A stretch of DNA of 43,965 nucleotides from an uncultured Bacteroidota bacterium (GTDB lineage: Bacteria > Bacteroidota > Bacteroidia > Flavobacteriales > Flavobacteriaceae), in the NCBI GenBank assembly GCA_902590705.1, contig CACIXU010000015.1:1-43965 (forward strand). The letters are read 5' to 3'. A program made the translations under genes and the position numbers. This document shows, piece by piece, positions 24,182-43,816 of the stretch. Under the pieces are notes generated by a model, which had not been told where the DNA came from, did no database searches, and saw nothing but the letters and a program-made list of their open reading frames with translations. Numbering within the stretch: position 1 is the first letter of the stretch; each line of letters opens with the position of its first letter.

Positions 24182-24183
24182 TT

Positions 24184-27911: not shown

Positions 27912-29004
27912 TGAGAATTAGTTGATCAAAAATTATTTTTTGGTAATGAAAGTTATATTTTTCGTCTATAATTTGCCTTACTTTTTTTTTGTCTGGCTTG
28001 AACTCTAAAAACGACTTAATTTTAATTGCCAAATCAATTGAGTCGCCCTCCTTAAAAAGGAAACCATTAACTCCTTGGATGATGGTTTCCACTTCAGGCA
28101 TTTGATTGTTGAAGTTACTATGAGAAGCAACAGCAGTTCCATAACTCAAAGAATGAATGGCGGTTAAACCAATATTTCCAGGAGAAATACAAAGGTCTGA
28201 GTTATAAATCAAACTACTAATCTCGTTTTCATCATATAATGACCCATAAAAATAAAAATTATTTAAACGAAGTTTGGTTGAAAGCTTAACTAAAAATTCT
28301 TTTTGATTACCATCTCCAATAATTAGAAGGTTTACTTTGTAGTTTGATTTGTCCAATTCTTTAACAGCACGAATTAGAATTTCAAGTTTTTTTTGTTGAG
28401 TTAGTCTGCCAATAAACAAAAGCGTAGGGTAATCATTTTTAAAATGTTCAATGCCAGAAGGTTTTTCGCTCTCCAGTTTTTCAAATAGTTTTTTTTGAAG
28501 TTCGTAGTCCAGAGAGTTATAAATTATTTCTAAATTTTCTTTTTGAAAACCATTTTTAATAAGAATCTGTTCTGCCCTTTTTTCATAAAGCAAGTGTTTG
28601 TCTGCTAATTTTAAAAAAAATAGCCTAAAGAATTTTTTAAATTCGGATTCATTGCCATAAATTCCATGACCCCAAAACCAAATTTCAATAGCTCTGATTT
28701 TGCATATAATGATTGCCAACCACGTAGAAATGACATTCATTTCCCCCATAAAAATAACAATATCAATTTTTTTTTTGCAAACTGTTTTGATCACGTTAGT
28801 TTGCCATATTAGTCTGGATTTAAAAATATAGTTTTTTAAACTATGAAATTTTTTACTCTTCAAAGAATTACTGGATTTTATTCCATTAAGTTCTTGACTA
28901 GAAAAAAAAATATTAAAATCGTAGCGTGTCTCCTCAATAAGTGATTTCCAGATGGACTCTCTATATTTAGGAAAGATATTTGTGAAGTAATATACTGACT
29001 TCAA
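27904..29004 (-). CDS. GT4-family glycosyltransferase
   Basis: 366 residues. Retaining GT-B transferase. The C-terminal half has LLFIGRLTQQKKLEILIRAVKEL, LLIIGDGNQKEFL and DLCISPGNIGLTAIHSLSYGTAVASHSN with the donor-site glutamate region PEVETI, then GVNGFLFKEGD, in the normal order. The N-terminal half is more divergent and AT-rich. Overlaps fdtA by 8 nt and follows fcl by 1 bp. Donor unknown; GDP-fucose is made by the two genes upstream. Confidence 0.87.
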   Translation of the reverse strand: MKSVYYFTNIFPKYRESIWKSLIEETRYDFNIFFSSQELNGIKSSNSLKSKKFHSLKNYIFKSRLIWQTNVIKTVCKKKIDIVIFMGEMNVISTWLAIIICKIRAIEIWFWGHGIYGNESEFKKFFRLFFLKLADKHLLYEKRAEQILIKNGFQKENLEIIYNSLDYELQKKLFEKLESEKPSGIEHFKNDYPTLLFIGRLTQQKKLEILIRAVKELDKSNYKVNLLIIGDGNQKEFLVKLSTKLRLNNFYFYGSLYDENEISSLIYNSDLCISPGNIGLTAIHSLSYGTAVASHSNFNNQMPEVETIIQGVNGFLFKEGDSIDLAIKIKSFLEFKPDKKKVRQIIDEKYNFHYQKIIFDQLILND

Positions 29005-29005
29005 T

Positions 29006-29938
29006 TCAAGAATGATTTAAAAAGTCGTAATAGGTTAGAGAAATACCTACGTTCAAATTTATTTTAGATTTCCATCCCAACTTATGAAATTTACTGCAAT
29101 CCAATAATTTCCTTGGAGTTCCGTCGGGCTTTGAGCTGTCCCAAAGTATTTTTCCTTTGAAACCTATTTCTTTTTTTATTAATTCTGCGAGTTCTAGTAT
29201 GGTAAGTTCCTCCTTGGAGCCAATATTGTAAATGCTTTCATCAAGCTCGTTTTCAATAGTAAATAATACTGCTGAAGAGAGGTCATCAACGTGAAGGAAT
29301 TCCCTTAAAGGAGTTCCTGAACCCCATAAACTTACACTGTCAAGATTATTCACTTTACCCTCGTGAAACTTTTTGATAAGTGCGGGTAAAACATGAGATG
29401 TTTTTAAATCATAATTATCATTGGGGCCATATAAGTTTGTGGGCATTAAGGAAACATAATCATAACCAAACTCTTTTTTAATTGCCTGAATCAGCTTTAC
29501 TCCAGAAATTTTGGCAATTGCATACCATTGATTAGAAGGTTCCAAGGCACTTGACAGTAAGTATTCTTCTTTTAGGGGTTGAGGGGCTAATTTTGGATAT
29601 ATACATGAGCTACCTAAAAAAATAAATTTTTTTACTTTATTATCAACTGCTGATCTAATCAAATTGTTTTGAATTAACATGTTATCCATTAAAAATCTAT
29701 AGGGGTATTCATTGTTTGCCCATATACCTCCAACAATAGCGGCTGAATCAATTATGATATCTGGTTTTTCATTAGAAATAAAACTTTCAACTTTTTTTTG
29801 ATTCCTGAGGTCTAATTCTTTAGATCCTAAAAATATTAAGTTATTGTAGCCTTTGCTTTTTAACATTCGGATACAAGCTGAACCAACCATTCCATTATGG
29901 CCAGCAATGTATATTTTTGATGATTTAGATATAGACAT
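29006..29938 (-). CDS. fcl: GDP-L-fucose synthase
   Basis: 310 residues. Bifunctional 3,5-epimerase/4-reductase turning GDP-4-keto-6-deoxymannose into GDP-L-fucose. [15 protein letters not shown] (NADP site), [37 protein letters not shown] and [12 protein letters not shown] with the Tyr-Lys pair are all specific to this family; [13 protein letters not shown] follows. TAATG overlap with gmd upstream. Confidence 0.96.
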
Positions 29939-31059
29939 TATTCAAAATGGTTTAAAGAATCATATCCCCCTTTTTCTAAATATTTTAATTTGTGAATCTG
30001 CTTCAAATCTGAATCCATCATGTCCCTTACCAACTCACCCAATGTTGTTTCAGGAACCCATCCCAATTTTTCTTTTGCTTTTGTCGCATTGCCAACCAAA
30101 ACATCTACCTCTGTGGGCCTATAGTAACTTGAGTCAATCGCCAGCACCTGCTGACCTTTTTTTAATTTATATTTTGAAGAAGAGCAATCTGCTACAATTG
30201 CAACTTCATCTATACCTTTTCCAACAAACTTTAATGTAACTCCTATATGGGCAAAACTCATTTTGACAAAATCGCGAACAGTAGTGGTTTTTCCAGTAGC
30301 AATAACCCAATCTTCAGGGATATCTGCTTGAAGAATCATCCACATCATCCTGACATAGTCTTTAGCGTGCCCCCAATCCCTTTTTGCATCCAAATTCCCG
30401 AGATATAATATATCCTGAATTCCATAAGCTATTTTAGATACAGCTCTAGTGATTTTTCTGGTCACAAAGGTTTCCCCTCTAACGGGCGATTCATGATTGA
30501 ATAAAATTCCGTTACAGGCAAAAAAATCATAGGCCTCTCTATAGTTTACTGTTATCCAATAAGCATACATCTTAGCTACACCATATGGACTTCGAGGATA
30601 GAAAGGGGTTGATTCAGTTTGTGGAATTTCTTTAACTTTTCCAAATAACTCTGAGGTTGAAGCTTGATATATTCTGACTTTCTTTTCCATTCCCAATAAA
30701 CGAATTGCCTCAAGTATTCTTAGTGTTCCTAAGGCATCTACATTTGCAGTATATTCAGGAATTTCAAATGAAACTTTTACATGGCTCATTGCAGCAAGAT
30801 TATATATCTCATCGGGTTGAACCTCTTTAAGAATTCGAATAATATTTAAACTGTCAGTTAAATCACCGTAGTGAAGGAAAAAATTTTTATTTTCGATATG
30901 TGGGTCTTGATATAAATGATCTATCCTTTGTGTATTAAACGAGGAAGATCTTCTTTTTACACCATGGACAATATATCCTTTACTTAATAAAAGCTCTGAA
31001 AGATAAGCCCCATCTTGACCAGTTATTCCTGTGATGAGCGCTTTTTTTTGATTTTTCAT
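29938..31059 (-). CDS. gmd: GDP-mannose 4,6-dehydratase
   Basis: 373 residues, standard length. Forms GDP-4-keto-6-deoxy-D-mannose, the precursor of GDP-L-fucose. [39 protein letters not shown], the YGDLTDSLN loop, [23 protein letters not shown] and [12 protein letters not shown] are diagnostic, as is [20 protein letters not shown]. Directly coupled to fcl downstream (TAATG) and overlapping the FkbM gene by 4 nt. Confidence 0.97.
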
Positions 31060-31715
31060 AATTTTCCTTTAATATAAAATAAATTCCTGTCTTCCGTTTT
31101 AAAAAGATGATACCCGTTTTTTACTAAGTATTGATTTAAAGAAATTTTGTTTTCATTTGCCTCAGTTAAAATTATTTTGATATTATATTTTGCCAAGTCC
31201 AATGATTTAAGAACTTGAAAATCGTGGCCCTCAACGTCTAAGGTAAGTAAATCAATTTTCTGACCCTCTGGGAGGTAAAGCTCAAAAACTTTACTTAATG
31301 TGATTGGCATCATTTTCTTTTTTTTAGTTGGTGTGAAGCCAATTTCATTAAGTTTTTTTAAACGATCTTTACTCAATATTCCATTAAGTGCGCTATCATT
31401 GAAAAAATAAAAATTAACTAATTTGGTGCTGTTAGAAATTATGTAATTTAAATTAATATCCCTTTTTCTAAAAGTCTCAAAAATCCATAGATTTTTTTTG
31501 TCAGCATCTATGTTTATGCCATTCCAGCCCTTTTTGTACAATATTGCAGTATTTGAAAATCTAAATGGATGGTGAGCTCCCACATCGACATAAAAACCAT
31601 TGGAAATATTTTTAAATATTTCTTGGATTATTTTTTCCTCATTTCCTTGGGAAAAATTTCTTTTCTTTATTAGTACCCAATAAAAAAAACTAATTAGTCT
31701 GTGGATTAATGTCAG
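31056..31715 (-). CDS. FkbM-family methyltransferase, start uncertain
   Basis: The first standard start (GTG at 31583) falls inside SAM motif I ([15 protein letters not shown]), which cannot be a true N-terminus. Reading upstream, the same frame stays open to a TAG at 31719-31721 and gives family-like sequence ([18 protein letters not shown], then [12 protein letters not shown]) with no ATG, GTG or TTG. CTG at 31715 is the only near-cognate start, giving ~219 residues. The rest is a good FkbM domain: [28 protein letters not shown] and IILTEANEN. Either a non-canonical start or a lost start codon or frameshift. Likely O-methylates a surface sugar; overlaps gmd by 4 nt. Confidence 0.72.
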
Positions 31716-31718
31716 AAC

Positions 31719-31806
31719 CTAAAGTTTTAAAATGATTTAAGTTTTTTTAAAAATTAGTGAAAATAACTTTTGATCATAATAAATATGAAAAAAAATTAAA
31801 AGCATG
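31719..31806. other. Largest non-coding gap in the glycan run
   Basis: 88 bp, very AT-rich, between the FkbM gene and the GT-B gene downstream. No TAnnTTTG promoter, hairpin terminator or RNA motif was recognised. It is the only gap over 40 bp in about 24 kb of same-strand glycan genes. Confidence 0.5.
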
Positions 31807-33306
31807 TTAATTCAATAACTCTTTTGTTTTCATATTCATTCTGTTGATATTTTTTATATTAATTCCATCAATTACTTTTCTCTTGATCATGTAGTCGCTT
31901 GACTTGTGGATATAATGGATGTAGTAATACTTGGCTACCTCTGTCTTAAGATTATTACAGTTTTTTAAACTATTGACATTTAAAATAAGATCCTTATACT
32001 GATTTCTGTTCTTTGCAAAAAATCCAATATTGAATGCTGATACAGGATTCTCAGCACAATATATACATTTGATCCCAAAAAAAGCCAATTCAGGAATCAC
32101 CGTGCCATGATGACTAATACCAAACTTAATATTCCTTTTAAAAAGAGAGATATTTGAAATTAATGGATTTAGCCAAATGAGATCTTTATAAATTTCCTTG
32201 ATTTTTTCTTGGAACCTTAAGCTCTCTGGAATCTGATATGGATGAGGTTTAATTGCTATTTTTAGATTGTATTCTCTTATTATATCAAGTGTAAAAATTG
32301 CCCATTCGTAAAAGTCATTAAATATTACCTCCCCATATAACTTATGTGCGTCATAAAAATCATGTAGAAAAAGAACTCCATCAATTGATTGATAATTATC
32401 AAATTGAACATTATAATCAACATATGGATTACTTTTCATTAATTTAATATATCCGGTATCGTCTTTACCCTCAAATCTTGAGCTAAAGACTTTCAAACTA
32501 TTTTGAATTATTTTATTATTAAAATCAATTTTTTTCAAAATATTTTTATAAGACTTTGTGGTTTCCATCATATAAATATCATCAAATGAGTGAAGTTTAA
32601 ACATCTGGGTGAAATTACCTGAGGTAAATACCTTTGATGATTTTTTTAAAAAAACCCTTAGGGGAATTCCGTGGTATGTATAAACAGCCTGCGAGAAAAA
32701 TACTTTTTGAAAGTTTGGAATATTTGGAAGATTTAAAAAGTAAGTAATTTGATTAATTGATCTATGAAGTGATAAAAAGTATGAAAAACTTTTAAGGTTA
32801 AGCGTTGGGATTTTTTTAGAAAACCTAACAACTGTATCGTAAATTAAATCACCACACCTAATGCCTTTATATGAAAATGATATAAGCTGTTTTTTATTTT
32901 TAATTTCAAAAAATATTTTTACTGCCTTAAATATATTTATGATTTTTAAACGAAAAGAAAGGTTTGCTTGATCATAGAACTGAGTAACACCTATAGAAGA
33001 ATACATTTTTTTTAATTTTTTCTTATTCAAATGATTGACAAAAAGTTTTATAATCATAGGAATAAGAAGAATTATATCTTTAAATTTTAGATTTAAAGGA
33101 CTACAAATTACACCATAAATTTTGTTTACGTTTTCATGTTCATTTTCAATAACAAGTGAAAATAATTTTAAATAAAAAATATCGTTCACACATTGAATAA
33201 GGATCGGTTTTCCTATGGGGTTAGGACTAAAAATTCCTTTTTGACAAAACTCTTTTTCAAACTTATCTAAAAAAATTAATTTTTTATAATTTGAAAAATT
33301 AATCAT
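31807..33306 (-). CDS. Putative GT-B/capsule-synthesis-like transferase
   Basis: 499 residues, Lys/Asn/Ile/Phe-rich, no signal peptide. The C-terminal third resembles KpsC/KpsS-like or CDP-glycerophosphotransferase-like GT-B proteins: VLFLHDFYDAHKLYG, then LKIAIKPHPYQIPES (a KPHP donor-site motif), KFGISHHGTVIPELAFFGIKCIY, NPVSAFNIGFFA. The N-terminal half has no recognised domain. It overlaps the PseA-type amidotransferase gene by 8 nt, at the downstream end of the nonulosonate block, so transfer of that sugar is a reasonable hypothesis. Family placement by motif only. Confidence 0.55.
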   Translation of the reverse strand: MINFSNYKKLIFLDKFEKEFCQKGIFSPNPIGKPILIQCVNDIFYLKLFSLVIENEHENVNKIYGVICSPLNLKFKDIILLIPMIIKLFVNHLNKKKLKKMYSSIGVTQFYDQANLSFRLKIINIFKAVKIFFEIKNKKQLISFSYKGIRCGDLIYDTVVRFSKKIPTLNLKSFSYFLSLHRSINQITYFLNLPNIPNFQKVFFSQAVYTYHGIPLRVFLKKSSKVFTSGNFTQMFKLHSFDDIYMMETTKSYKNILKKIDFNNKIIQNSLKVFSSRFEGKDDTGYIKLMKSNPYVDYNVQFDNYQSIDGVLFLHDFYDAHKLYGEVIFNDFYEWAIFTLDIIREYNLKIAIKPHPYQIPESLRFQEKIKEIYKDLIWLNPLISNISLFKRNIKFGISHHGTVIPELAFFGIKCIYCAENPVSAFNIGFFAKNRNQYKDLILNVNSLKNCNNLKTEVAKYYYIHYIHKSSDYMIKRKVIDGINIKNINRMNMKTKELLN

Positions 33307-34531
33307 TTAAGCCTGAATTAGTTACATTGTGTTTTAACTTCCACTCACCCTTTTGATCTTTGCCCCATATGTGAGGAGATCTAAATTTGTCAACAGTTTC
33401 TTGAAATTCATTTTCACTAATTTCAATGTATTCTAAAAATTCATGGAAATATTTTTTTGGGAATTCCTGATCAAATTTTCTAACCAGTGCTACCCCCTCA
33501 TCCCTAGTTATTTTACCATTTCTAATTTCCTGGGCGGCATCATAGGTGGCTCTGCCAATGCCAAACTTAATCAATGTAGTATAATAATGAAAATTATCAA
33601 TTTTGTCATCAATACTACTGTATTTTGAATATGTTCCCTCTGTTCGCTCAGTGTTTGCAGAAAATCCGTTATGTTCAGATGAATAATAATAAGCCTCTTG
33701 GGGATCCCATTTTAAATAATATCCCAAGAATTGAACATTGATTTTTGAAGATTTTATTTTTTCATATGGAAATGGAAAATAAGGAATAAAGTCATTTAAT
33801 TTATAATCGTATTGATCAATAATATCCTTTACTTTGACACCTCCTAAAATTAGATCTAATGGGCTAGATTTTTGAGAAAAATATTTTGGGTCAAGATTAG
33901 GGATTTTGTTTTCGTCAATTTCATTACCGTATTCTGCTTGATTTTCTCCGTACATTACTAAATTAATTCCAAATTTCTCAGCCATTGATGCCCCTATTTG
34001 TTTTTGACCCAATATGAAAGGTTGAAAAGGATGTAATAAGTTTTTGAAAGCTAGTTTTGTTAATAGACGATGAAGTCTACCATTGGGAGTGTATAAAATA
34101 TTATCAAAACCGCCAACGTGTACCCAATTTGTGAAATTTTTCCAACCAATTTCGGTGTAAAGGTGTGGAGCCCATGTTACAGTTAGGGGATTCATCCCAT
34201 ATTTATATTTAAGAATGTGTGATTGGAAGCCACTATCCTTTCCCCCACTTCCTGGGATTAAAACATCATAGCTTCCATCATTTTTCCTGTACTTGTCACA
34301 GAGCCTTTGAAGTAATAACTCCCTTTTCTCCCAGTTTATGTTTTTTTGTTTTTGGTCATTATAATTGCACGCCGCACAAACACCTTCTTCATCAAAGTTA
34401 ATTACTTCTTTTTTTTCATTTTTATCATGTTTAAACTCAATAGTAGAGCTTGGTCTTTGATTGGAAATGACACATTTTTTACAAAAAATGACTTTTTCGG
34501 GCAAACCGTACAGTACTTTATTATGTTTCAT
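33299..34531 (-). CDS. N-acetyl sugar amidotransferase (PseA/WbpG family)
   Basis: 410 residues. ATP-dependent enzyme that turns an N-acetyl group of a sugar into an acetamidino group using ammonia supplied by a HisH/HisF-type pair. Zinc-type CxxC pairs at Cys17/Cys20 and Cys52/Cys55 (FCKKCVISNQRPSS, GVCAACNY) precede the PP-loop SGGKDS (95-100). VTWAPHLYTEIGWKNFTNWVHVGGFDN and YGENQAEYGN are family hallmarks. Known members act on pseudaminic/legionaminic acids (PseA of Campylobacter) and on ManNAc3NAc-type uronic acids (WbpG of Pseudomonas O5). Four base pairs separate it from the hisH-like gene. With NeuB/NeuC types nearby, a nonulosonate is the more likely substrate. Confidence 0.9.
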   Translation of the reverse strand: MKHNKVLYGLPEKVIFCKKCVISNQRPSSTIEFKHDKNEKKEVINFDEEGVCAACNYNDQKQKNINWEKRELLLQRLCDKYRKNDGSYDVLIPGSGGKDSGFQSHILKYKYGMNPLTVTWAPHLYTEIGWKNFTNWVHVGGFDNILYTPNGRLHRLLTKLAFKNLLHPFQPFILGQKQIGASMAEKFGINLVMYGENQAEYGNEIDENKIPNLDPKYFSQKSSPLDLILGGVKVKDIIDQYDYKLNDFIPYFPFPYEKIKSSKINVQFLGYYLKWDPQEAYYYSSEHNGFSANTERTEGTYSKYSSIDDKIDNFHYYTTLIKFGIGRATYDAAQEIRNGKITRDEGVALVRKFDQEFPKKYFHEFLEYIEISENEFQETVDKFRSPHIWGKDQKGEWKLKHNVTNSGLND

Positions 34532-34535
34532 AGAA

Positions 34536-35165
34536 TTAGTTTTTTATAAAATTTTTTAATATTTCAAAACCAACTTTTCCACTTTTTTCAGGGTGAAATT
34601 GTAAGCCTACAATATTATTCTTCTGAACTGATGCGCATAATTTAACACCCTCATATACTGTATTTGCAATTACATTTTCATTAGTTTGAGGTTTACAACA
34701 GTATGAATGAATGAAATAAACATAATCTTCAGATCTAATATTTCTTAAAATAGAATTATTAGATAATTCAGTATTGGACTTTATGATTTTATTCCATCCA
34801 ATATTAGGTAATCTAATTTTTTTATTTTTAGAGGGAATTTTAATGACATTACCCTTAATTAACCCTAATCCATCAGTAACACCAAATTCCTCACTATATT
34901 CAAAAAGCATTTGCATCCCGAGACATATTCCCATGAAAGGTTTCCCTTGATCAATAAAGTGATAGATCGCTTCATCTAAGTGAATCTTCTTTAACTTTTC
35001 CATTGCATTTGCAAAAGCACCAACTCCAGGTAATATAAGGAAATCTGAGTCTTTAATTTTTTTATGATCACTTGTCAATACAGGAGTTGTGTCAAGTATT
35101 TTAAATGCATTGTAAAGGCTTTTTAGATTTCCAATTCCATAATCTAATACACAGACTTTTTTCAT
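34536..35165 (-). CDS. HisH-type glutaminase subunit, sugar-amidation paralogue
   Basis: 209 residues. Class I glutamine amidotransferase that hydrolyses glutamine to release ammonia. Intact triad: Cys81 in GICLGMQMLFE, and His191/Glu193 in GLQFHPEKSG; the oxyanion loop PGVGAF is at 46-51. Located between the amidotransferase and the HisF-type gene (4-bp gap and 4-nt overlap), the same trio as pseA-hisH-hisF in Campylobacter and wbpG-hisH2-hisF2 in Pseudomonas. No other histidine-biosynthesis gene is present, so it likely feeds the amidotransferase. Confidence 0.9.
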   Translation of the reverse strand: MKKVCVLDYGIGNLKSLYNAFKILDTTPVLTSDHKKIKDSDFLILPGVGAFANAMEKLKKIHLDEAIYHFIDQGKPFMGICLGMQMLFEYSEEFGVTDGLGLIKGNVIKIPSKNKKIRLPNIGWNKIIKSNTELSNNSILRNIRSEDYVYFIHSYCCKPQTNENVIANTVYEGVKLCASVQKNNIVGLQFHPEKSGKVGFEILKNFIKN

Positions 35166-35920
35166 TTCCTGACATTAAAATTATTGTTTATCATTTTCGC
35201 TTTTATTTGTCTTATAGAATAATCATCGTAATGAAGAATAGATCCAACCGCTACTCCAGAAGTGTCTGTTTCACTTGACAAAGAAATAATATCCTCGGGA
35301 CAACCCGCTCCTCCAGATGAAATAACAGGAATTGAAACTGAATTCGAAATCAATTGAATTAATTCTATATCATATCCTTTTTTGGTTCCATCCCTATCAA
35401 TTGATGTTATCAGTAATTCACCTGCCCCTAAAAATTCTAATTTTTTAGCCCAATTAATGGCATCGATTCCGGTTTCCTCCCTTCCGCTATCAATATACGC
35501 CTCCCAACTATTCCCCCTTTTTTTTGCCTCGATTGAACCAATGATTGCTTGAGAACCATAAACTCTTGATGCTTCAGTTATAAAATCTGGATTTTTAATT
35601 GCTTGGGTATTTATTGCTATCTTATCAGCTCCAGAATCTAGGGAGTGCTCAATGTCATCAAGTGTTCTTATACCGCCTCCGATTGTTAGAGGAACAAAAA
35701 TATGCTTTGATGCATTTTCAATAATTTTAAAAAGATTATTCCTCTCGTATAAACTTGCAACTGCATCGATAAAAAGAATCTCGTCGATACCTTCTTCATA
35801 ATATTTTTTTGCAGTCAATAGAGGGTCTCCAACTTTCCTTAGTCCCTCTAATTGAATCCCTTTTATTACAAAATTATTTTTTACATCTATTCTTGATATT
35901 AGGCGTAAATTTTTTTTCAA
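35162..35920 (-). CDS. HisF-type ammonia-channel subunit with altered catalytic residue
   Basis: 252 residues, TIM barrel. Keeps Asp12 (equivalent to catalytic Asp11 of Thermotoga HisF), GGGIRTLDD, TSIDRDGTKKGYD and SSGGAG phosphate-binding loops. The second catalytic position, Asp130 of Thermotoga HisF in IDAKR, is Glu131 here (GSIEAKKRG). This suggests it no longer closes the imidazole ring and instead channels ammonia from the HisH-type partner to the amidotransferase. Overlaps its neighbours by 4 nt on each side. Confidence 0.88.
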   Translation of the reverse strand: MKKNLRLISRIDVKNNFVIKGIQLEGLRKVGDPLLTAKKYYEEGIDEILFIDAVASLYERNNLFKIIENASKHIFVPLTIGGGIRTLDDIEHSLDSGADKIAINTQAIKNPDFITEASRVYGSQAIIGSIEAKKRGNSWEAYIDSGREETGIDAINWAKKLEFLGAGELLITSIDRDGTKKGYDIELIQLISNSVSIPVISSGGAGCPEDIISLSSETDTSGVAVGSILHYDDYSIRQIKAKMINNNFNVRK

Positions 35921-36762
35921 ATCCTACTTTGTTGTTTTGTGTTTAATCTTTTGTAAAAATCTTTTCCAAGGCAATAGTCAATTTTCTTCTTGTTATGGAT
36001 TCCCAGTGGATTTTCAAGTAATTCAAAAAAGTGCTGATCAAACTTTTCAATATATAAATAACTCCAATCTCTTTGTAAATTTGATTTAATGAAACGTGCA
36101 TTGGCAGTTCGACCGTCAAAAACTATTAAAGTTCCTGGGCAAAGAAAATGTTCCATAGATAAAATATCAGCAATCATAGGCATTCTATCCGGGTGTCTAG
36201 TTGATAAACCTCTTATTTCGCCTTTTGATGAGAACTGATCTGGCCCATCAACATAAATAATATCTGGTGAGATATTGGGATTAATGTCAAATAGTGTGGA
36301 GATTCGACCATTAAACTCCGACATAATAACATCTGAAAAATGTAGATTTATGATTGATTTTAATTGATTAGGAATTTTTTCGCTAGTGATTTTAATAAAC
36401 TCTTCCGAAGTGTCAATTGAATGTAATTCAAATAGGTTGGAGCATCGGATATCATTAAATGAATGATTTAAACTATTTTGAAGTATTGCATCACCCATAA
36501 CAAGGGTGCTATATCCAACACCAAATTCTAAAACGGTAGTTGCCTTTCTACTTTTAATTAGATAATGAAGTCTAATCAAATCATCAAATTCAGGGCTGAA
36601 TGGCTCTTTAATTTCTGGATTTACATTGTGAAATGGGTCAATATTATATTTCTTTGAAATTTTATCTTGGAGGTTCTTAATTCCAATAAGGTCCTCTAAT
36701 TTATTATCAATTAAATATTTTTCATAATTAAAATTATCTGGAAATAAGTCTAATAAATTCAT
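35917..36762 (-). CDS. Class I methyltransferase-fold protein of unknown function
   Basis: 281 residues. VLEFGVGYSTLVMGDA (about 76-91) is a clear motif I; ELHSIDTSEEF is an acidic-loop-like motif and IIYVDGPDQFSSKGEIRGLSTRH a motif-II-like segment with a VDGP turn. FLCPGTLIVFDGRTANARF follows. The fold is likely SAM-dependent methyltransferase, but substrate is unknown. Overlaps hisF by 4 nt, so it may belong to the nonulosonate/amidino module. Confidence 0.65.
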   Translation of the reverse strand: MNLLDLFPDNFNYEKYLIDNKLEDLIGIKNLQDKISKKYNIDPFHNVNPEIKEPFSPEFDDLIRLHYLIKSRKATTVLEFGVGYSTLVMGDAILQNSLNHSFNDIRCSNLFELHSIDTSEEFIKITSEKIPNQLKSIINLHFSDVIMSEFNGRISTLFDINPNISPDIIYVDGPDQFSSKGEIRGLSTRHPDRMPMIADILSMEHFLCPGTLIVFDGRTANARFIKSNLQRDWSYLYIEKFDQHFFELLENPLGIHNKKKIDYCLGKDFYKRLNTKQQSRI

Positions 36763-36799
36763 GTATTTTATTTAGTAATATTTGAAAATTAAGTTAAAA

Positions 36800-37597
36800 T
36801 TAAATTGCTGACCACCCTCCATCAACAACTATATTTGCTCCAGTCATGTAACTAGATGCATCAGATACAAGAAATAATATTGACCCATTAAATTCATCTC
36901 TGTTGGCCATCCTGCCTAATAAGGTTCTGTACGAATAATTTTCAATAAAAACTTTATCATGATTATCTAAAACTCCACCGGGTGTAAGACAATTGATCCT
37001 AATTCCTTTCTCTCTATAATAAGAAGCAAGATACTTAGTCATATTTAAAATTCCCGCTTTAGATATTGCATATGAAATTGGAGAGGATAATTTTTCATCT
37101 GGGTTGTAAATATTTTTTACACCGTCATAAATTCTTTGATCAGCACCAGTTATGCCATATATTGATGACACATTGATAATATTTCCATAGCCTTGTTTTA
37201 AAAATATTTTACTAGCTTCTCTGCATGATAGTGCCATTCCAACTGTATTACCCTCTATTACTTTCATTAAAGTCTCTTTTGAATAATCTTCAAAAGAATT
37301 ATAAAAACCCTCTGGTTTTACTTGTGAATTATTAATCAGTACATCTAGTTTTCCATAATAAGAGATTAAATCCTTAAAATAGAATTCAATAGATTTTTCG
37401 TCGTATAAATCTATATAAAGAGCCAAGGGGTTAGTTTTAAATTTTGCTTTCATCTCATTAGCATATACTTCACATTTTTTAAAATCAATATCTCCAATTA
37501 TAACATTGGCTCCTTTAGATGACAAAAAATTTACATATTCTGTTCCAAGGATTCCAGTTGATCCAACAATTGCTATATTTTTATTTTTAATATCCAC
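36800..37597 (-). CDS. Short-chain dehydrogenase, PtmA-like
   Basis: 265 residues. Classical SDR: AIVGSTGILGTEYVNFLSSKGANVIIGD (cofactor site, somewhat altered from TGxxxGIG), NNSQVKPEG, NVSSIYGITG and catalytic YAISKAGILNMTKYLA; the end is SSYMTGANIVVDGGWSAI. In Campylobacter the SDR PtmA acts with PtmF to supply glucosamine phosphate for GDP-linked legionaminic acid. It overlaps the Gfo/Idh/MocA gene by 1 nt, the pairing expected for PtmA-PtmF. The SDR family is certain, the PtmA role inferred. Confidence 0.78.
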   Translation of the reverse strand: MDIKNKNIAIVGSTGILGTEYVNFLSSKGANVIIGDIDFKKCEVYANEMKAKFKTNPLALYIDLYDEKSIEFYFKDLISYYGKLDVLINNSQVKPEGFYNSFEDYSKETLMKVIEGNTVGMALSCREASKIFLKQGYGNIINVSSIYGITGADQRIYDGVKNIYNPDEKLSSPISYAISKAGILNMTKYLASYYREKGIRINCLTPGGVLDNHDKVFIENYSYRTLLGRMANRDEFNGSILFLVSDASSYMTGANIVVDGGWSAI

Positions 37598-38556
37598 TAG
37601 ACTTGGTTTTTTTTTATTTTAAAACATGTTTCCATTACCGATTGATTTTCGTTAAATGAAGATAAGATAGATACTGAATCTTTTTTTTTAATAATATTGA
37701 TATAGTCATTCAATAAATCAATATACATGTCATTAATCTGAAAATCTTTAAAATTATAGCTTTCGATCAATTGATTTTTCTCTCCCTTAATAGTGATAGA
37801 ATTATTAAAAAGGTCGCAGTAAAGATTACATTTACTGCCCCCAATATAAAAGTTTCGAGAATATCCCCGATACAAATAATCTAGATGAATATTAACGAGT
37901 ACATTTTCTGATGTATTGTATATTATTTCTGCAATATCCTCAGAGTCTATAGTAACATTTGAAATTTTACGTGCAATTGAATACACTTTATCTTTAGGTT
38001 TATTTATTAAATATTCCGCAATATCAATTTCATGAACTAGGTCGAATATTACTCCTCCTCCCAATGAACTTTTGGCTGAATAATTCTCAAGATGATTTGT
38101 TTTAGGTTTCCAATCAGGAAGATATTGGCCAACAAAAAAACGGGCTGAGTGTAATCTCCCCAATAATGATTTTTTTATTATTTCTTTTACTTTTACAATA
38201 CAGGGGTGGTGTCTAAGATTAAAAGCAATTCTAGCTATTCCATCGTAATCTTTTAATAATCTGTTTAATGAGACGAGCTCACTTGGTTTATTTAAAAGTG
38301 GTTTTTCACAAAGTATATTTAACTTACTTTTGATTAAAAACTTCAGATACTTATAATGGAGAGCCGTTGGATTAGAAACAATTACAAAATCTGGGTTGAC
38401 TTCTAAAATTTGGTCAATATTGTTTATTTCGTTTATTCCATGATGATTTCCCTTTTTTTTTCTTCTAAAAAGAGTAATTTCATTTATCCCTAATGATATT
38501 AGATTGTTGACATGTCTTCTTCCAATTGACCCGTAACCAATCAACACAACTTTCAA
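37597..38556 (-). CDS. Gfo/Idh/MocA-family oxidoreductase, PtmF-like
   Basis: 319 residues. N-terminal VLIGYGSIGRRHVNNL Rossmann motif, VIVSNPTALHYKYLKF and the family's EKP motif (NILCEKPLLN); the C-terminal half has GGGVIFDLVHEIDIAEYL with the conserved His/Asp. Located between the cytidylyltransferase and SDR genes with 4-nt and 1-nt overlaps. Position and partner match PtmF of the Campylobacter legionaminate locus; the substrate is inferred. Confidence 0.8.
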   Translation of the reverse strand: MKVVLIGYGSIGRRHVNNLISLGINEITLFRRKKKGNHHGINEINNIDQILEVNPDFVIVSNPTALHYKYLKFLIKSKLNILCEKPLLNKPSELVSLNRLLKDYDGIARIAFNLRHHPCIVKVKEIIKKSLLGRLHSARFFVGQYLPDWKPKTNHLENYSAKSSLGGGVIFDLVHEIDIAEYLINKPKDKVYSIARKISNVTIDSEDIAEIIYNTSENVLVNIHLDYLYRGYSRNFYIGGSKCNLYCDLFNNSITIKGEKNQLIESYNFKDFQINDMYIDLLNDYINIIKKKDSVSILSSFNENQSVMETCFKIKKNQV

Positions 38557-39260
38557 AGTAGATTTTTTTTTAACCAGGCCTCAGCTACATACCAGTCATT
38601 CATATCATCAATACAAACAGACCTACTTACAGGCATTACATATGGAATAATATTTTGACCGTAAAGAATACCTTGCATTATCAGTTCTTTTCTGAAAACG
38701 TAAACAGCCCCATTTCTCATATACGCTTTGGGAGAGTATTCTTGCCTTGGAACTCCTTCAGGTTCATCTTTCCAAATAGGTTTTAGACGATCACCCTCAA
38801 TTTTTTTCATTAAAATCGGATGATATTGATTAGCTTCCTGAACACTAACAACACAATCTGGATTGTTTTCAATAAATAATTCTATGGAATGATCTATATC
38901 TGCAGAAATTCTTAATGGATTAGGTGGTTCTAGATAAACAATCAAATCATATTTAACATTATCAATTTTTTCCATTTCAGTTATAGCGTGTTGAATTACC
39001 CCTATTGCTTTTGCTGAGTCAGTTGATAAATATTTAGGTCTAATAAATGGAACATCTGTATTAACTTTTTTACATAAGTCCCTAATTTCGATACTATCTG
39101 TTGATACAATAAGATGGTCTATGTAATTAGATTCTCTTGCTGCGGCAATTGTATACTCAATAAGTGGTCGACCATTTAAATCTTTAATATTTTTTCCTGG
39201 AACACCTTTAGAACCTCCTCTTGCAGGAATCAATCCCAATATTTTTTTTTTATTAATCAT
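38553..39260 (-). CDS. CMP-nonulosonate cytidylyltransferase (NeuA/LegF/PtmB type)
   Basis: 235 residues. Activates a nonulosonic acid with CTP. LIPARGGSKGVPGKNIKDLNGRPLIEYTI is the CMP-sugar synthetase signature; IVSTDSIEI, FIRPKYLSTDSAKAI, YLEPPNPLR and RNGAVYVFRKELI continue the family pattern. Single-domain, without the esterase tail of some NeuA proteins. The nonulosonate could be legionaminic, sialic or pseudaminic; the PtmA/PtmF and NeuC-type partners favour legionaminic. Confidence 0.88.
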   Translation of the reverse strand: MINKKKILGLIPARGGSKGVPGKNIKDLNGRPLIEYTIAAARESNYIDHLIVSTDSIEIRDLCKKVNTDVPFIRPKYLSTDSAKAIGVIQHAITEMEKIDNVKYDLIVYLEPPNPLRISADIDHSIELFIENNPDCVVSVQEANQYHPILMKKIEGDRLKPIWKDEPEGVPRQEYSPKAYMRNGAVYVFRKELIMQGILYGQNIIPYVMPVSRSVCIDDMNDWYVAEAWLKKNLL

Positions 39261-39279
39261 CTCTTCATATTCAAATTGA

Positions 39280-40227
39280 TTAATATATCATGGTATTAAC
39301 GATTTGATTTTCTACATATTTAATGAGGTTTTTTAATTCATTTGAATTCATTTTACTGCAATTTTCACTATTTATTGAAACCTTTAATCTGGTATTTTCG
39401 TCACTATTTACCTCATTAGTTATAAAAATATAATCTTTTTCAAGTCTTGTAAATTTCAGTTCATCATCTGAGATCAAATTTTCGGATAATTCCTCCCCAG
39501 GTCTAAGACCAACTACTTCAATATTGCTTGAAAATTGTTTAGCTAAATCATTAATATTAACTGATTTCATTTGTTTTGATAAAACAAAAGCGCCTTTTTT
39601 ATTTTCTGCCTGTCTTATACACTCTTCTATTATTTCTGAAACTTCTTTGCCGTATAACATTAATCTGGTCATTGTTTTATCAGTTACTGGAATTGACTTA
39701 CCATTTTTTAAACGATTAAGCCAGAAGGGAATAACTGAACCATTACTTCCAGCAACATTTCCAAATCTTGTACAGCAAAAAATATTTTTTTCATTACTGG
39801 CTTCCATAAACATCCTCTCCATTAATAGTTTTGAATACCCATACAGATTATTAGGGCTACAAGCCTTATCTGTGCTTATTCCTATGGTTATTGGAACATT
39901 GTTACTAACTGACAATTCAATAATATTTTTTGTTCCTAATATATTTGATTTAACCATTTCTAGAGGCTGCTTCTCTGCAGTATCGACATGCTTTAATGCA
40001 GCAGCATGAATTATAATATGTGGTTTAACTTTAAGTATTATATTTTCAAGATTATTTCTATCCTCCACTGACCCTAAAATTATTTCAACTTTAGAATACG
40101 CTCTTTTTAAAGCAACTTGTGATTTTTCATTTCTAGAGTAACTATAGATTTTGTATTTATTTATATTATACTTTATAAAAAGTGAGCCTACTGTCCCACT
40201 TCCACCCGTTATCAAAATTTTTTTCAT
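39280..40227 (-). CDS. CapD/FlaA1-type short nucleotide-sugar dehydratase, LegB candidate
   Basis: 315 residues. Polysaccharide-synthesis family 2 (CapD-like) soluble form without the membrane domain. ITGGSGTVGSLFI, AAALKHVDTAEKQPLEMVKSNILGTKNI (family hallmark), STDKACSPNNLYGYSKLLMERMF with the Tyr/Lys of the active site, RFGNVAGSNGSVIPFW and GLRPGEELSENL. Such enzymes are UDP- or GDP-GlcNAc 4,6-dehydratases; within this block a LegB role fits. Its stop is near the cytidylyltransferase start (19-bp gap) and its start directly abuts the NeuC stop. Confidence 0.84.
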   Translation of the reverse strand: MKKILITGGSGTVGSLFIKYNINKYKIYSYSRNEKSQVALKRAYSKVEIILGSVEDRNNLENIILKVKPHIIIHAAALKHVDTAEKQPLEMVKSNILGTKNIIELSVSNNVPITIGISTDKACSPNNLYGYSKLLMERMFMEASNEKNIFCCTRFGNVAGSNGSVIPFWLNRLKNGKSIPVTDKTMTRLMLYGKEVSEIIEECIRQAENKKGAFVLSKQMKSVNINDLAKQFSSNIEVVGLRPGEELSENLISDDELKFTRLEKDYIFITNEVNSDENTRLKVSINSENCSKMNSNELKNLIKYVENQIVNTMIY

Positions 40228-41346
40228 CTAATAAGTTATTTTTTTTTGGATGATATTTGGACTTAAATCCAATGTTTTTATTATGCCTATTATTTTATTT
40301 GCAGACCTACCATCTCCATATGGGTTTTCAAATTCAATCCCATTATTTCTAATTTGCTTGCACTTTAAAATTGCTTTCAAAATTTCTTTTTCATCATAAC
40401 CTACATCAATAACATTTTTTGGTCGCAAACGTCCATTCTGTCTAGTCCCAATATTTACGGTAGGAATATTAAATGTAGAAGTTTCATGTATACCACTACT
40501 AGAATTACCTATTAAACCCGTGCTTCGTTTAAGTAAATTAATGTAATCAGATATCTTCAAACTCTCTATAAATTTGATATTTGATCCCTTTAATTCATCA
40601 ATAATTTTTGAATATCCTGCATCATTATTTGGTAAAATTATGATTGCATTTTCATTACTAATTTTAATTGCTGAGAGAGTTATCAAAATTTGATTACGTG
40701 AGTCACCAAATTCTGATGTAACAGGATGTTGAAGCAAAATAAAATAGTCATTATGTTTTAAGCCAAAGCGATTAAGAATGTCAGGATTGTCTTCAGTATT
40801 CAAAATAGCATCAATAGAGGGACATCCGACATTAAAAATACGCTCTGGTAACTCCCCTAGTTTAATTAAACGATTTGTAGCATCCTGATTTGAAGCAAAA
40901 TGAAAGTGAGAAAATTTTGTCATTGCATGCCTTATGGACTCATCTATTGTTCCAGTAACTTCACCTCCTTGTATGTGTGCAACTGGAATATTCATGTGTG
41001 CTCCAGCAATTGTAACTGCTAAATTGGCCCCAATGTCAAAACCACTTAGAATTAAATCGGGTTTAGAGTCCTCTAAACAATAAGTCACTTGATCCGCTAC
41101 TCTAGCAAAGGATCTAACCATCGAAGCTCCACTATCTTCTTGATCAGTAAACATTTTAATTTCATAGTGAATTTTAAACCCATCATTTAAAATCTCATTT
41201 TTAGTATACCCCATCGACTTAACAAGATGCGCTCCAGTAGCAACCAATGTATAATCAAGATCCTTATCTTCAATAATTAGTTCTAAAATAGGTTTGAACC
41301 TTGAATAATCAGCTCTACGCTCGGTAATTATGAAAATATTAATCAT
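40228..41346 (-). CDS. Hydrolysing nucleotide-sugar 2-epimerase (NeuC/LegG type)
   Basis: 372 residues. Releases the 2-epimerised amino sugar from its nucleotide as substrate for the NeuB-type synthase. ITERRADYSRFKPILELI, GAHLVKSMGYTKNEI, DLILSGFDIGANLAVTIAGAHMNIPVAHIQGGEVTGTIDESIRHAMTKFSH (family hallmark), LIGNSSSGIHETSTFNIPTVNIGTRQNGR (nucleotide site). 4-nt overlap with the NeuB-type gene. NeuC acts on UDP-GlcNAc, LegG on a diacetyl-bacillosamine derivative; by eye these cannot be separated, but the CapD-type neighbour favours LegG. Confidence 0.9.
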   Translation of the reverse strand: MINIFIITERRADYSRFKPILELIIEDKDLDYTLVATGAHLVKSMGYTKNEILNDGFKIHYEIKMFTDQEDSGASMVRSFARVADQVTYCLEDSKPDLILSGFDIGANLAVTIAGAHMNIPVAHIQGGEVTGTIDESIRHAMTKFSHFHFASNQDATNRLIKLGELPERIFNVGCPSIDAILNTEDNPDILNRFGLKHNDYFILLQHPVTSEFGDSRNQILITLSAIKISNENAIIILPNNDAGYSKIIDELKGSNIKFIESLKISDYINLLKRSTGLIGNSSSGIHETSTFNIPTVNIGTRQNGRLRPKNVIDVGYDEKEILKAILKCKQIRNNGIEFENPYGDGRSANKIIGIIKTLDLSPNIIQKKITY

Positions 41347-42377
41347 TTAAAATCTGTTCGTTTTATAAATTCATCTTTTTTTATTTTTCGAAGAGAAGTT
41401 TTTCCAATAACTGATGAAAAGTACTCTGCTTTTAAGGGTCCCGTACCCGGCCTTTTTACCCAAATGTTATTAATGCTAAAAATTTCACCCTCATTAATAT
41501 TTTCTATAGCCACAACTGAGGCAAAAGCAAATTTTGCTGTTTCAATTTCTTCCTTTACAGGTTTTTTACTCCCTCCTCTTTGTTGAAATAAAATATCTAC
41601 TCCTTCAATAAGTTCCTTGCACTCTTTTTCGTCCATTGAGCAAACTATATCAGGACCTATTCTATCCTTTGTATCAGTATAGTGCCTTTCTATAATTGAG
41701 GCTCCTAACGCAATTGCTCCGAAGGAAGAGTGATTTGATAAAGTATGATCTGAAAGTCCTATAATAGTATTTTCAAATTTAGACTTTAAGTCTTGTAATG
41801 CACCGAGCCTAACAAGATTATTTGGAGTAGGGTATAAATTTGTAGTGTGTAAAATTGCAAATGGTAAATTGTGTTTTCTGATTATTTCTACTGCTTTACT
41901 TATGCTGTTGAGATCATTCATTCCAGTACTGAGTATAATAGGTTTTCCAAAAGATGATATATGCTCAATCAAAGGATAATTATTACATTCGCCAGATCCA
42001 ATTTTATATGCAGGTATATTCCACTTATGAAGACGGTCTGCAGCTGCTCGACTAAATGGAGTACTTATAAATTCCATCGAGTTTTTTTTGACGTAATTCA
42101 TTAATTCAAATTCATCATTCTCTGAGAGTGAGCACTCATCAATTATGTCAAAGATATTTTTTTTAGTATGAACCGGTATAATCTTTTTAGCAACATCAGA
42201 CATCTCCTCGGATGCAATATGTGTCTGATGCTTAATAATTTTTACTCCAGCTCTTTTAGCTGAATCTACCATTTCCTTTGCCACCTTAAGTGAACCACCA
42301 TGATTAATTCCAATTTCGGCAATTACAGTCGGAGGGTAATTAACTCCTATTTTTATTTTACCAATTTTAAAATTCAT
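41343..42377 (-). CDS. N-acetylneuraminate/legionaminate synthase (NeuB/LegI type)
   Basis: 344 residues. Condenses PEP with a 6-carbon amino sugar to form a nonulosonic acid. NeuB barrel: VIAEIGINHGGSLKVAKEMVDSAKRAGVKIIKHQTH, FISTPFSRAAADRLHKW, AYKIGSGECNNYPLIEHI, ILSTGMNDLN, LHTTNLYPTP, GLSDHTL and IERHYTDTKDRIGPD. It ends with an SAF/antifreeze-like domain (IENINEGEIFSINNIWVKRPG...IGKTSLRKIKKDEFI), as in full-length NeuB proteins. First recognised gene of the block in the window. Choice between LegI, NeuB and PseI is by context. Confidence 0.93.
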   Translation of the reverse strand: MNFKIGKIKIGVNYPPTVIAEIGINHGGSLKVAKEMVDSAKRAGVKIIKHQTHIASEEMSDVAKKIIPVHTKKNIFDIIDECSLSENDEFELMNYVKKNSMEFISTPFSRAAADRLHKWNIPAYKIGSGECNNYPLIEHISSFGKPIILSTGMNDLNSISKAVEIIRKHNLPFAILHTTNLYPTPNNLVRLGALQDLKSKFENTIIGLSDHTLSNHSSFGAIALGASIIERHYTDTKDRIGPDIVCSMDEKECKELIEGVDILFQQRGGSKKPVKEEIETAKFAFASVVAIENINEGEIFSINNIWVKRPGTGPLKAEYFSSVIGKTSLRKIKKDEFIKRTDFK

Positions 42378-42406: not shown

Positions 42407-43816
42407 TTAGATTTTACTTCCAGTTGATTTATAATCATTCAAATAACTATTTAAATTATTTACTAATAAATTTATGTTCTCACTGAAAGTAATTTTTGAA
42501 ATTTCTTCATATGCAAAGTTTACATAGCCCCGAAAATAATTCGAAGGTGTTTTTTTAATCTCATTTGAGAGCTCAGATAACTTTGGCTTAAATCCGTTCG
42601 AAATTTTTTCAATTGCATTTTTTAGCTCTAGATTTGTCTCTACTGGAAATACACCATGAAAAAATTTATAGTAAATATGTCCAAAACAAATAACTGGAAT
42701 TTCATTAAAAATTGCTTCAAGTCCCATAGTCCCTGAAATTACTCCAACCGCTTTACTGTTAAGTAAAATATTTCTTGTAGGTATATTTTCATTTATAAAA
42801 AAAACATTTTTTAGGTTATTAAGCTCTTTATAAAATTCTAAGTTTCTACCAAAAACTGGATTTTGAGCTGGATGTTCTTTTAAATAAATTATCCAGTCAC
42901 TGTTATTTAATGAATGAGAAAGCATCTTAATCATTAAGCTTTGAAAAACAAAAATATTCCCTTTAGGTGAGGTTGAAGCTTCAGGCTGGAAATGAAGTGG
43001 TACAAAAATATATTTTTTATTTAATTGAGGAGTGACTTTACATTTGATTAAATATTTTAATATTTTTTTTCTAACAATAAAATTATTTACCTTATAAATA
43101 AAATAATTAAAGAAAAGTTTTTTAGTATTTAACTCATTTAATACGAATTTTAATTTTTTAATTTTTAATCCCGTTTTCTTAAGATCATTGAAGAAATTAT
43201 TAAAATAGAACGGTTTATAATCTGGCTTTCGGAATTCTTGAATTGTAAATTTTGCATTTTTATACAATAATTCGTCTTTTTTAAAACTAGTAGGTTTTTT
43301 GATTTTAATATTTTCTTCAATGAGATATGTGTCTTGCAAATGTAATTGCTCGTGGTACAAGCTAATTCTCCCTTTTGACTTCATTAATTGATGGATAAGG
43401 AATGCTGCAGGCTCGTGGGGGACGCTTAAAAATACTGAAATTTTAATTTTATGTTTTTCAATTGTATGATTCCAAAACCTAATATGATTGAAAAACATTT
43501 TTGCTCTTTCTTCAAAATTATCTGATCCATTAAAACTTCCAAATCTATCTGACATTTTAAGAGTTAATAAACTATCAAAATTTAAACTATCGAAAACAGA
43601 TTTATCGACTGGAATCGTTTTATCTAAATTATTGTAATTTGAAGAGACTGTCTCCTCCAGATCAATATTGATAATTTCTTTACCAGAAATTTCAATGGGA
43701 TTTTGATTGGGAATCCTTATGGTAAATATTCTTTGAATCGAGGGGATTTTATTGCATATCCCCTCAAGGTAACTCCTTCCTAATTTAGTTGAAGTTTCAT
43801 CAAAGAAAATATTCAT
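42407..43816 (-). CDS. Putative GT-B/capsule-synthesis-like transferase (KpsS/KpsC-like)
   Basis: 469 residues, no signal peptide, Lys/Asn/Ile/Phe-rich. The C-terminal half has SPKGNIFVFQSLMIKML, YLKEHPAQNPVFGRN (KxHP-type donor motif), KAVGVISGTMGLEAIFNEIPVICFGHIYYKFFHGVF, which fits the Capsule_synth/KpsS-like GT-B fold. The N-terminal half contains an FNHIRFWNHTIEKHKI...PHEPAAFLIHQLMKSKG region like the first Rossmann domain. It lies 29 bp upstream of the NeuB-type gene and may transfer the nonulosonate or a Kdo-like sugar. Fold call is moderate, function inferred. Confidence 0.6.
   Translation of the reverse strand: MNIFFDETSTKLGRSYLEGICNKIPSIQRIFTIRIPNQNPIEISGKEIINIDLEETVSSNYNNLDKTIPVDKSVFDSLNFDSLLTLKMSDRFGSFNGSDNFEERAKMFFNHIRFWNHTIEKHKIKISVFLSVPHEPAAFLIHQLMKSKGRISLYHEQLHLQDTYLIEENIKIKKPTSFKKDELLYKNAKFTIQEFRKPDYKPFYFNNFFNDLKKTGLKIKKLKFVLNELNTKKLFFNYFIYKVNNFIVRKKILKYLIKCKVTPQLNKKYIFVPLHFQPEASTSPKGNIFVFQSLMIKMLSHSLNNSDWIIYLKEHPAQNPVFGRNLEFYKELNNLKNVFFINENIPTRNILLNSKAVGVISGTMGLEAIFNEIPVICFGHIYYKFFHGVFPVETNLELKNAIEKISNGFKPKLSELSNEIKKTPSNYFRGYVNFAYEEISKITFSENINLLVNNLNSYLNDYKSTGSKI

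Follow-up and report, generated by a model that had tools for sequence, protein, structure and literature searches.

A flavobacterial operon predicted to make an amidinated, sialic-acid-like sugar, tentatively of the 9-deoxy-neuraminic type

The genes of the Campylobacter legionaminic acid pathway are known by Leg and Ptm names. Those cited for the formation of cytidine monophosphate (CMP)-legionaminic acid are LegB, LegC, LegH, LegG, LegI and LegF together with PtmA, PtmE, PtmF, PtmG and PtmH (PMC4481668, PMC3766260). Bacterial N-acetylneuraminic acid (Neu5Ac) is formed by the NeuA, NeuB and NeuC pathway. The amidotransferase LpNASAT of Legionella pneumophila (structure 8wex) belongs to a family whose signature consists of a tetracysteine and an SGGxDS motif (PMC10607449). 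Fusaminic acid of Fusobacterium nucleatum ATCC 25586 is an amidinated 3,5,9-trideoxy-nonulosonate (PMC13014188, PMC5595891), and its L-glycero-L-gluco configuration is tentative (PMC13014188, PMC10915975). A 2020 paper lists a single natural trideoxy-nonulosonate (PMC7371886), and a limited search of the open-access literature found no described biosynthetic route to such a sugar. Here we describe ten genes at positions 33299-42377 of the window, which is the entire 43,965-nucleotide contig C15 (CACIXU010000015.1) of a Flavobacteriaceae assembly with 59 contigs and 82.8% completeness; all results for the assembly refer to this degree of completeness. The gene content makes it very probable that this set produces a sialic-acid-like sugar with an amidine group. 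We tentatively propose that the product is a CMP-activated, 5-N-amidinated 3,5,9-trideoxy-nonulosonic acid with a hydroxyl group at C7 (9-deoxy-neuraminic type) for a surface glycan.

The ten genes were all found on the minus strand with every reading frame intact and with tight junctions, which confirmed the single orientation given in the initial annotation. They are transcribed in the order neuB, neuC, short capD-type dehydratase, cytidylyltransferase, Gfo/Idh/MocA oxidoreductase, short-chain dehydrogenase/reductase (SDR), methyltransferase-fold candidate, hisF, hisH and amidotransferase of the WbuX/PseA family. The successive gaps are −4, 0, +19, −4, −1, +37, −4, −4 and +4 bp, and this narrow span of the nine junctions is strong evidence for a single operon. 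As in the Campylobacter pathway, NeuB, NeuC and CMP-synthetase logic is combined with a PtmA-like SDR, an oxidoreductase, an amidotransferase with HisF and HisH, and a methyltransferase candidate. Unlike that pathway, the operon contains CapD instead of LegB, LegC, LegH and PtmE, and its NeuB and NeuC fall outside the Leg rows of the trees. The L. pneumophila locus differs in having an aminotransferase and NeuD (PMC3766260). The NeuB is of the sequence class of the Neu5Ac pathway, but it has His at the site of the active-site residue Asn74 of SiaC, and the operon further differs from that pathway in its NeuC clade, its dehydratase and its amidination cassette. The predicted product type, a 5-acetimidoylamino-3,5,9-trideoxy-nonulosonate, is that of fusaminic acid (PMC13014188, PMC5595891), from which it would differ in the tentative L-glycero-L-gluco configuration.

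The amidotransferase matched TIGR03573 (WbuX/PseA family) with 370 bits, above the cut-off of 203. Among solved structures, LpNASAT was the sole strong match (536 bits; the other two had E >0.3), and the tetracysteine and SGGxDS (PP-loop) motifs are both present. HisH matched TIGR01855 with 222 bits (cut-off 105) and keeps GICLGMQ and FHPE, and HisF gave 271 bits on the WbuZ model TIGR03572 (cut-off 300) and 267 bits on the hisF model (cut-off 295). Within the assembly, PF00977 matched no protein other than this HisF, and HisA was not found. HisF and HisH are therefore unlikely to be histidine genes, the single match coming from an incomplete assembly; the host may be a histidine auxotroph. 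Thus a PP-loop/tetracysteine amidotransferase with HisF and HisH adjoins a NeuB operon, and the gene content supports the earlier claim of an amidinated nonulosonate in the form of a CMP-nonulosonate operon with an amidination cassette. Close copies of the amidotransferase were found in 9 other Bacteroidia genomes (384 others searched): six in a cluster with LegC, LegH and LegI, one beside NeuB and NeuC without such a set, and two with no nonulosonate genes in the stretch retrieved. From the operon position and the gene context of these relatives, a nonulosonate is the predicted acceptor. The HisF-HisH-amidotransferase cassette thus occurs beside several different nonulosonate gene sets.

The window NeuB matched PF03102 with E 8e-65 and gave 409 bits to Neisseria meningitidis SiaC (1xuu). 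On the curated models it gave 371 bits for NeuB_NnaB (cut-off 400) and 224 bits for PseI (cut-off 340). Of the 84 rows of this NeuB class, 76 carry Asn at the position of SiaC Asn74 and 8, from 7 loci including the window, carry His; the residue aligned with it is Asp in the 4 Leg rows compared and Gly in the 2 Pse rows. The count comprised 83 rows of the class plus these Leg and Pse rows, and L056 (Asn), first dropped for its length, was added to give 84. The Asn rows represent a sequence class and are not equated with Neu5Ac synthases; 55 of 75 have none of nine partner classes nearby. Asn74 is listed among the SiaC active-site residues (PMC6795526), and C4-C6 specificity is attributed to NeuB positions 70-85 (PMC7371886). 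In the NeuB tree (44 rows), the four Leg synthases formed their own clade (96/92) and the window was placed elsewhere, among sialate-type synthases. This NeuB may derive from sialate stock; the Asn74-to-His change would then have arisen more than once. The best motif-free NeuB tree (38 rows) needs four motif changes, and the starred branches force two. The His motif appears to be a sign of 6-deoxy substrates; L048 and L113 would break any tighter form of this rule.

The window NeuC matched TIGR03568 with 368 bits (cut-off 236). In the NeuC tree (39 rows) it was located in a 100/98 clade with L023, L024, L025, L034 and L039. The 26 sialate-type NeuCs (100/100) and the 5 LegGs lie outside this clade; the split between Leg and non-Leg rows has a support of 83/69, and one Leg branch is very long. 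The NeuB/NeuC part of the grouping check attached to the initial annotation was therefore split: NeuB grouped with sialate-type enzymes, but NeuC belonged to its own clade. The identity of the window NeuC was 50% to L023 and 54% to L024. This NeuC class is rare: 394 other Bacteroidia genomes gave two matches (E≤1e-80), and 21 further genomes from the genus gave none (E≤1e-50). In a plasmid search, the NeuC matches were at most 37% among the 20 of 25 records listed. The rows of the NeuB and NeuC trees were thinned by hand and included 4 LegI (NeuB) and 5 LegG (NeuC) rows.

The comparison loci L023-L025 were found via their likeness to the window Gfo/Idh protein, and the other 80 were the best of at least 543 loci by NeuB likeness; Fusobacterium records were not among these best 80. 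Partners were counted for 94 NeuB-family genes as genes on the same strand within 8 kb, classified by the best BLAST hit to reference proteins. These references came partly from counted loci (L023-L028, L031), which score by construction, and partners may be missed on short contigs. L036 (Algoriphagus boritolerans) is identical to the L025 locus and was left out of the count, as was a NeuB fragment at the L026 edge. A LegB-class dehydratase (≥55% over 250 amino acids; in L023-L025 LegB itself is the reference) was found in all six other His loci versus one of 76 Asn loci (L113), with weaker dehydratase-like neighbours in 6 further Asn loci. In five of the six other His loci, neuC is followed directly by an NAD-epimerase/RmlD-type SDR, at the place that capD takes in the window. 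The active site of this extra SDR reads SSV or STV and not the dehydratase acid/base pair, which fits a reductase. An aminotransferase occurs in one of the six (L048) and LegH in none; among the Leg-type comparison loci, three of which count by construction, the figures are 11 of 12 for the aminotransferase and 10 of 12 for LegH.

The LegB-NeuB-NeuC-SDR-PtmE-CMP-PtmF-PtmA sets of L023, L024, L025, L034 and L039 resemble the window in the NeuC clade, the NeuB His motif and the lack of an aminotransferase. The CMP-synthetase, Gfo/Idh protein and SDR of the window are close to those of L023, the latter two also to those of L024, whose CMP-synthetase is 32% identical. The window differs from these sets by its amidination cassette and by CapD, which stands in place of LegB, SDR and PtmE. 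The CMP, PtmF and PtmA genes of L025, L034 and L039 belong to another subfamily and lie upstream of neuB.

The CapD-type protein matched PF02719 (3.6e-69), with 220 bits on the PseB model (cut-off 408) and 30 bits on the LegB model TIGR04180 (cut-off 475). Its best solved relatives were FlaA1 (2gn4, 161 bits) and CapE (153 bits). No relative at E≤1e-60 was found in 295 other Bacteroidota genomes, and a plasmid search gave one PseB-annotated match (35%). No protein of the assembly scored above the LegB cut-off, and Pfam and NCBIfam scans of the operon, whose contig ends upstream, detected no LegC, LegH, or other aminotransferase or acetyltransferase family. Three DegT-family proteins with a full-length match were found in the assembly. 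Two were scanned for LegC (cut-off 420) and neither was above it: the window protein, which is FdtB-like, gave 152 bits, and that of contig C28, which is PseC above cut-off, gave 214 bits. The third, on C3, was outside the NCBIfam scan and has a non-glycan context, between genes read as DHFR/FabD-like and KdtA-like. Of the amidinated legionaminic-type module first proposed, the amidinated part is thus supported and the legionaminic type is not, given the missing LegB, LegC and LegH and the positions of NeuB and NeuC. With the aminotransferase and LegH missing, a hydroxyl group is predicted at C7. The operon holds a dehydratase without an aminotransferase, and QuiNAc and FucNAc are reported to arise through a dehydratase and a 4-reductase (gdr with qnr or fnr; PMC9676051). 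Six assembly matches to the L023-L025 SDR came from five proteins, read as RmlB, GalE-like, Fcl, RmlD and a 275-amino-acid SDR on C19, the last being a putative candidate for 4-keto reduction.

From the gene content, motifs and clades, we infer the following reactions, substrates, stereochemistry and order, with the same reserve as for the product itself; any part played by the Gfo/Idh protein and the SDR would be equally tentative. CapD would remove the 6-hydroxyl group from uridine diphosphate (UDP)-GlcNAc, and a putative reductase would reduce the 4-keto group to a hydroxyl, without amination. NeuC would hydrolyse the nucleotide and invert C2, and NeuB, with its altered C4-C6 pocket, would condense the 6-deoxy-N-acetylhexosamine (HexNAc) with phosphoenolpyruvate. 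The cytidylyltransferase would activate the nonulosonate, HisH and HisF would supply ammonia, and the amidotransferase would convert the 5-acetamido into an acetamidino group. The methyltransferase-like protein may add a methyl group to the product. In the L023-L025 sets, nucleoside diphosphate (NDP)-GlcNAc would be dehydrated by LegB and reduced at C4 by the SDR to NDP-QuiNAc, from which NeuC would form 6-deoxy-ManNAc and NeuB 9-deoxy-neuraminic acid. The window would then represent a switch from guanosine diphosphate (GDP)- to UDP-linked precursors, with the amidination cassette added. The m/z values computed for the 1,2-diamino-4,5-methylenedioxybenzene derivatives were 409.17 for the amidino-trideoxy sugar, 423.19 for its methylated form, 425.17 for Neu5Am and 450.20 for Leg5Am7Ac. 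In PMC7371886, the Leg compound of A. salmonicida is listed with a quinoxaline mass of 450.1989.

More speculatively, a 4,6-dehydratase and a ketoreductase, together with a NeuC of the third clade and a NeuB with His for Asn74, may form 9-deoxy-neuraminic acid (3,5,9-trideoxy, 7-OH). This would be a possible fourth nonulosonate branch beside Neu, Leg and Pse in several Bacteroidota, of which the window would hold the 5-acetamidino form with CapD and UDP instead of LegB, PtmE and GDP. If so, a further class of sialic-acid-like sugars could be predicted from gene content plus a single residue of NeuB, in genomes where these genes currently carry neuraminic or legionaminic names.

The strongest alternative, which we regard as unlikely, is that NeuC and NeuB use UDP-GlcNAc and ManNAc to form Neu5Ac, which becomes 5-acetamidino-neuraminic acid, and that CapD makes a separate deoxy sugar. 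The NeuB score to SiaC agrees with this, as does the NeuB tree, in which L035 was the sister of the window (65% identity; 96/81, the bootstrap not being settled, and 92/73 without the motif columns). In the tree of 19 amidotransferases, the window joined L035 and L101 (97/94), both of which are minimal NeuB/NeuC/cytidylyltransferase clusters with the same cassette; the nearest copies from Leg clusters formed a separate clade of 7 (100/100), five of them in Leg clusters and two without nonulosonate genes seen. Amidino-neuraminic acid is the predicted product of the L035 and L101 clusters. An amidino-sialate is opposed by the His-Thr-Lys motif at the Asn74 site, by a NeuC outside the 26-row sialate-type clade, and by CapD within the operon with no gap to neuC.

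Acetamidino-legionaminic acid, with enzymes for 4-amination and 4-N-acetylation located past the contig edge, in the unassembled genome or in trans, is improbable. It would account for the PtmA-like SDR and for an amidotransferase of a Leg-associated family, with LpNASAT as its solved relative and six of nine close copies in Leg clusters. L048 has a His-type NeuB beside an aminotransferase, and in Legionella the dehydratase lies outside the lipopolysaccharide locus that contains the aminotransferase and NeuD (PMC3766260). Opposed to it are the placement of NeuB and NeuC outside the Leg rows, for NeuC at a split of just 83/69, and the LegB and LegC results for the assembly.

Less probable still is a C5-inverted trideoxy sugar, either fusaminic acid itself or an 8-epi form. 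The STDK...YxxxK fingerprint of CapD is common to the C5-inverting PseB and FlaA1, to CDP-glucose dehydratase and to Pen (PMC8987622), FlaA1 is the nearest solved relative, and fusaminic acid is likewise trideoxy with a tentative L-glycero-L-gluco configuration (PMC13014188, PMC10915975). By our reasoning such a sugar would be expected to need PseI- and PseG-like enzymes, while the window has NeuB and NeuC and the Pse enzymes above cut-off sit on contig C28. A pseudaminic acid product was rejected on the NeuB scores (NeuB_NnaB above PseI), the sub-cut-off PseB score of CapD and the PseB/PseC/PseI set on C28.

The proposed amidinated trideoxy-nonulosonate faces further difficulties. A matching 4-keto-reductase was not found: neither the operon nor the assembly gave an SDR resembling that of L023-L025. 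The gene absences are soft, because the contig ends 149 bp past the gene upstream of neuB and the assembly is incomplete, and, as the position of the Legionella dehydratase shows, the lack of a gene in an operon does not decide the matter alone. A D-sugar is not assured (C5 retained or inverted), because the CapD fingerprint is shared with C5-inverting enzymes. Further Leg-cluster amidotransferases branch outside both clades described above, so the window branch is nested among Leg-associated enzymes. The window NeuB branch is long, the HTK motif does not prove several independent origins since one clade was not rejected (approximately unbiased test, p-AU 0.054), and the motif is no clean marker: L048 (His) has an aminotransferase, and L113 has LegB but Asn. 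The Gfo/Idh protein and the SDR are likewise present in 7 Asn loci that have neither a dehydratase nor PtmE within 8 kb. The methyltransferase candidate is not amidine-specific, because its relative lies in a CMP/NeuC/NeuB stretch without an amidotransferase. The sample is biased, because likeness to the window guided the choice of comparison loci, and three of the six other His loci are from Algoriphagus, which belongs to the same class as the host, Bacteroidia.

Table 1. Features of the window and of the comparison loci
Feature	Position	Strand	Evidence or remark
NeuB-family nonulosonate synthase, HTK variant (H70-T71-K72 at SiaC N74-A-D)	41343..42377	−	PF03102/SAF, motif, trees
NeuC-family hydrolysing NDP-HexNAc 2-epimerase, third clade (GGEVTGTIDESIRHAMTK)	40228..41346	−	TIGR03568, tree
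Short CapD-type NDP-HexNAc 4,6-dehydratase, STDK...YxxxK fingerprint	39280..40227	−	PF02719, solved relatives, alignment
CMP-nonulosonate synthetase	38553..39260	−	PF02348; 70% to L023 enzyme
Gfo/Idh/MocA oxidoreductase	37597..38556	−	Family match; 46% to L023, 45% to L024
SDR, PtmA-like (below model cut-off)	36800..37597	−	Family match; 62% to L023, 64% to L024
Methyltransferase-fold candidate, 281 amino acids, PtmH-like role possible	35917..36762	−	Sub-threshold PF13578
HisF-like ammonia channel subunit (WbuZ-like)	35162..35920	−	PF00977, TIGR03572
HisH-like glutaminase with GxCLGxQ and FHPE motifs	34536..35165	−	TIGR01855, motifs
N-acetyl-sugar amidotransferase, tetracysteine and SGGKDS PP-loop	33299..34531	−	TIGR03573, LpNASAT 8wex, tree
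Candidate transferase, possibly nonulosonyltransferase	42407..43816	−	Capsule_synth PF05159; weak relatives beside L023 and L024 clusters
Possible transferase, overlaps amidotransferase gene by 8 bp	31807..33306	−	Without Pfam or NCBIfam match
FdtA-like ketoisomerase (dTDP-3-amino sugar)	Window 27552-27911		Pfam
DegT aminotransferase (dTDP-3-amino sugar)	Window 25140-26243		Pfam
Minimal NeuB/NeuC/cytidylyltransferase with HisF, HisH, amidotransferase	L035 4077-9507		Neomarinimicrobiota or Chromatiales metagenome-assembled genome (pair with L101)
Minimal NeuB/NeuC/cytidylyltransferase with HisF, HisH, amidotransferase	L101 9929-15502		Neomarinimicrobiota or Chromatiales metagenome-assembled genome (pair with L035)
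LegB, NeuB (Asn74 kept), GalE-like SDR, NeuC, PtmE, CMP-synthetase, amidotransferase, HisF, HisH	L113 9013-18428		
Pseudaminic-type cluster: PseB, PseC, PseI	Own assembly contig C28, locus L009 1-11994		Above curated cut-offs

The cytidylyltransferase gave 131 bits on the PseF model (cut-off 206) besides its PF02348 match, and the SDR gave 143 bits on the PtmA model (cut-off 350). The Gfo/Idh/MocA oxidoreductase is presumably PtmF-like, and a viral-contig scan with this protein found no relative. The 7 Asn loci mentioned above carry a PtmF-CMP-PtmA trio (L037, on a short contig, L038, L041, L051, L053, L066 and L069). Because they carry both proteins without PtmE or a dehydratase, the role of PtmF and PtmA in supplying GDP-sugar, as cited in PMC4481668, is treated as one possibility for the window; the pair may act on the nonulosonate instead. 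The methyltransferase-fold protein of the initial annotation is present, but its family match (Methyltransf_24, E 2.9e-4) is weak and sub-threshold. One homologue (40%) was found among 394 other Bacteroidota genomes, adjoining CMP, NeuC and NeuB genes. L113 had no aminotransferase match and is possibly a second kind of amidinated trideoxy-nonulosonate cluster.

The genes downstream of the operon matched the families of rmlA-D, gmd, fcl, FdtA and DegT aminotransferase by Pfam, the gene names being our interpretation, and this bears out the rhamnose, fucose and 3-amino sugar genes noted earlier. No FdtC-like acetyltransferase was seen in the Pfam tables beside the FdtA-like and DegT genes. Families for thymidine diphosphate (dTDP)-rhamnose, GDP-fucose and FdtA/aminotransferase in the locus would fit an O-antigen, capsule or protein O-glycan setting, and acetamidino groups are listed as a rare modification of Bacteroidota O-glycans (PMC12871550). 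The initial annotation had seen no flagellar gene in the window and suggested a surface-glycan use; in agreement, flagellin (PF00669) gave no match in the assembly, and a flagellar role is therefore not expected. The separate pseudaminic-type cluster on C28 suggests that the host probably makes two nonulosonates. Its neighbours were read as an aldo-keto reductase, an SpsF-like protein, a class-III aminotransferase, a GNAT protein and a formyltransferase-like protein. The GC content was 0.27-0.32 across window positions 24001-42000 and 0.33-0.38 in the remaining profile, as expected of horizontally acquired surface-glycan genes.

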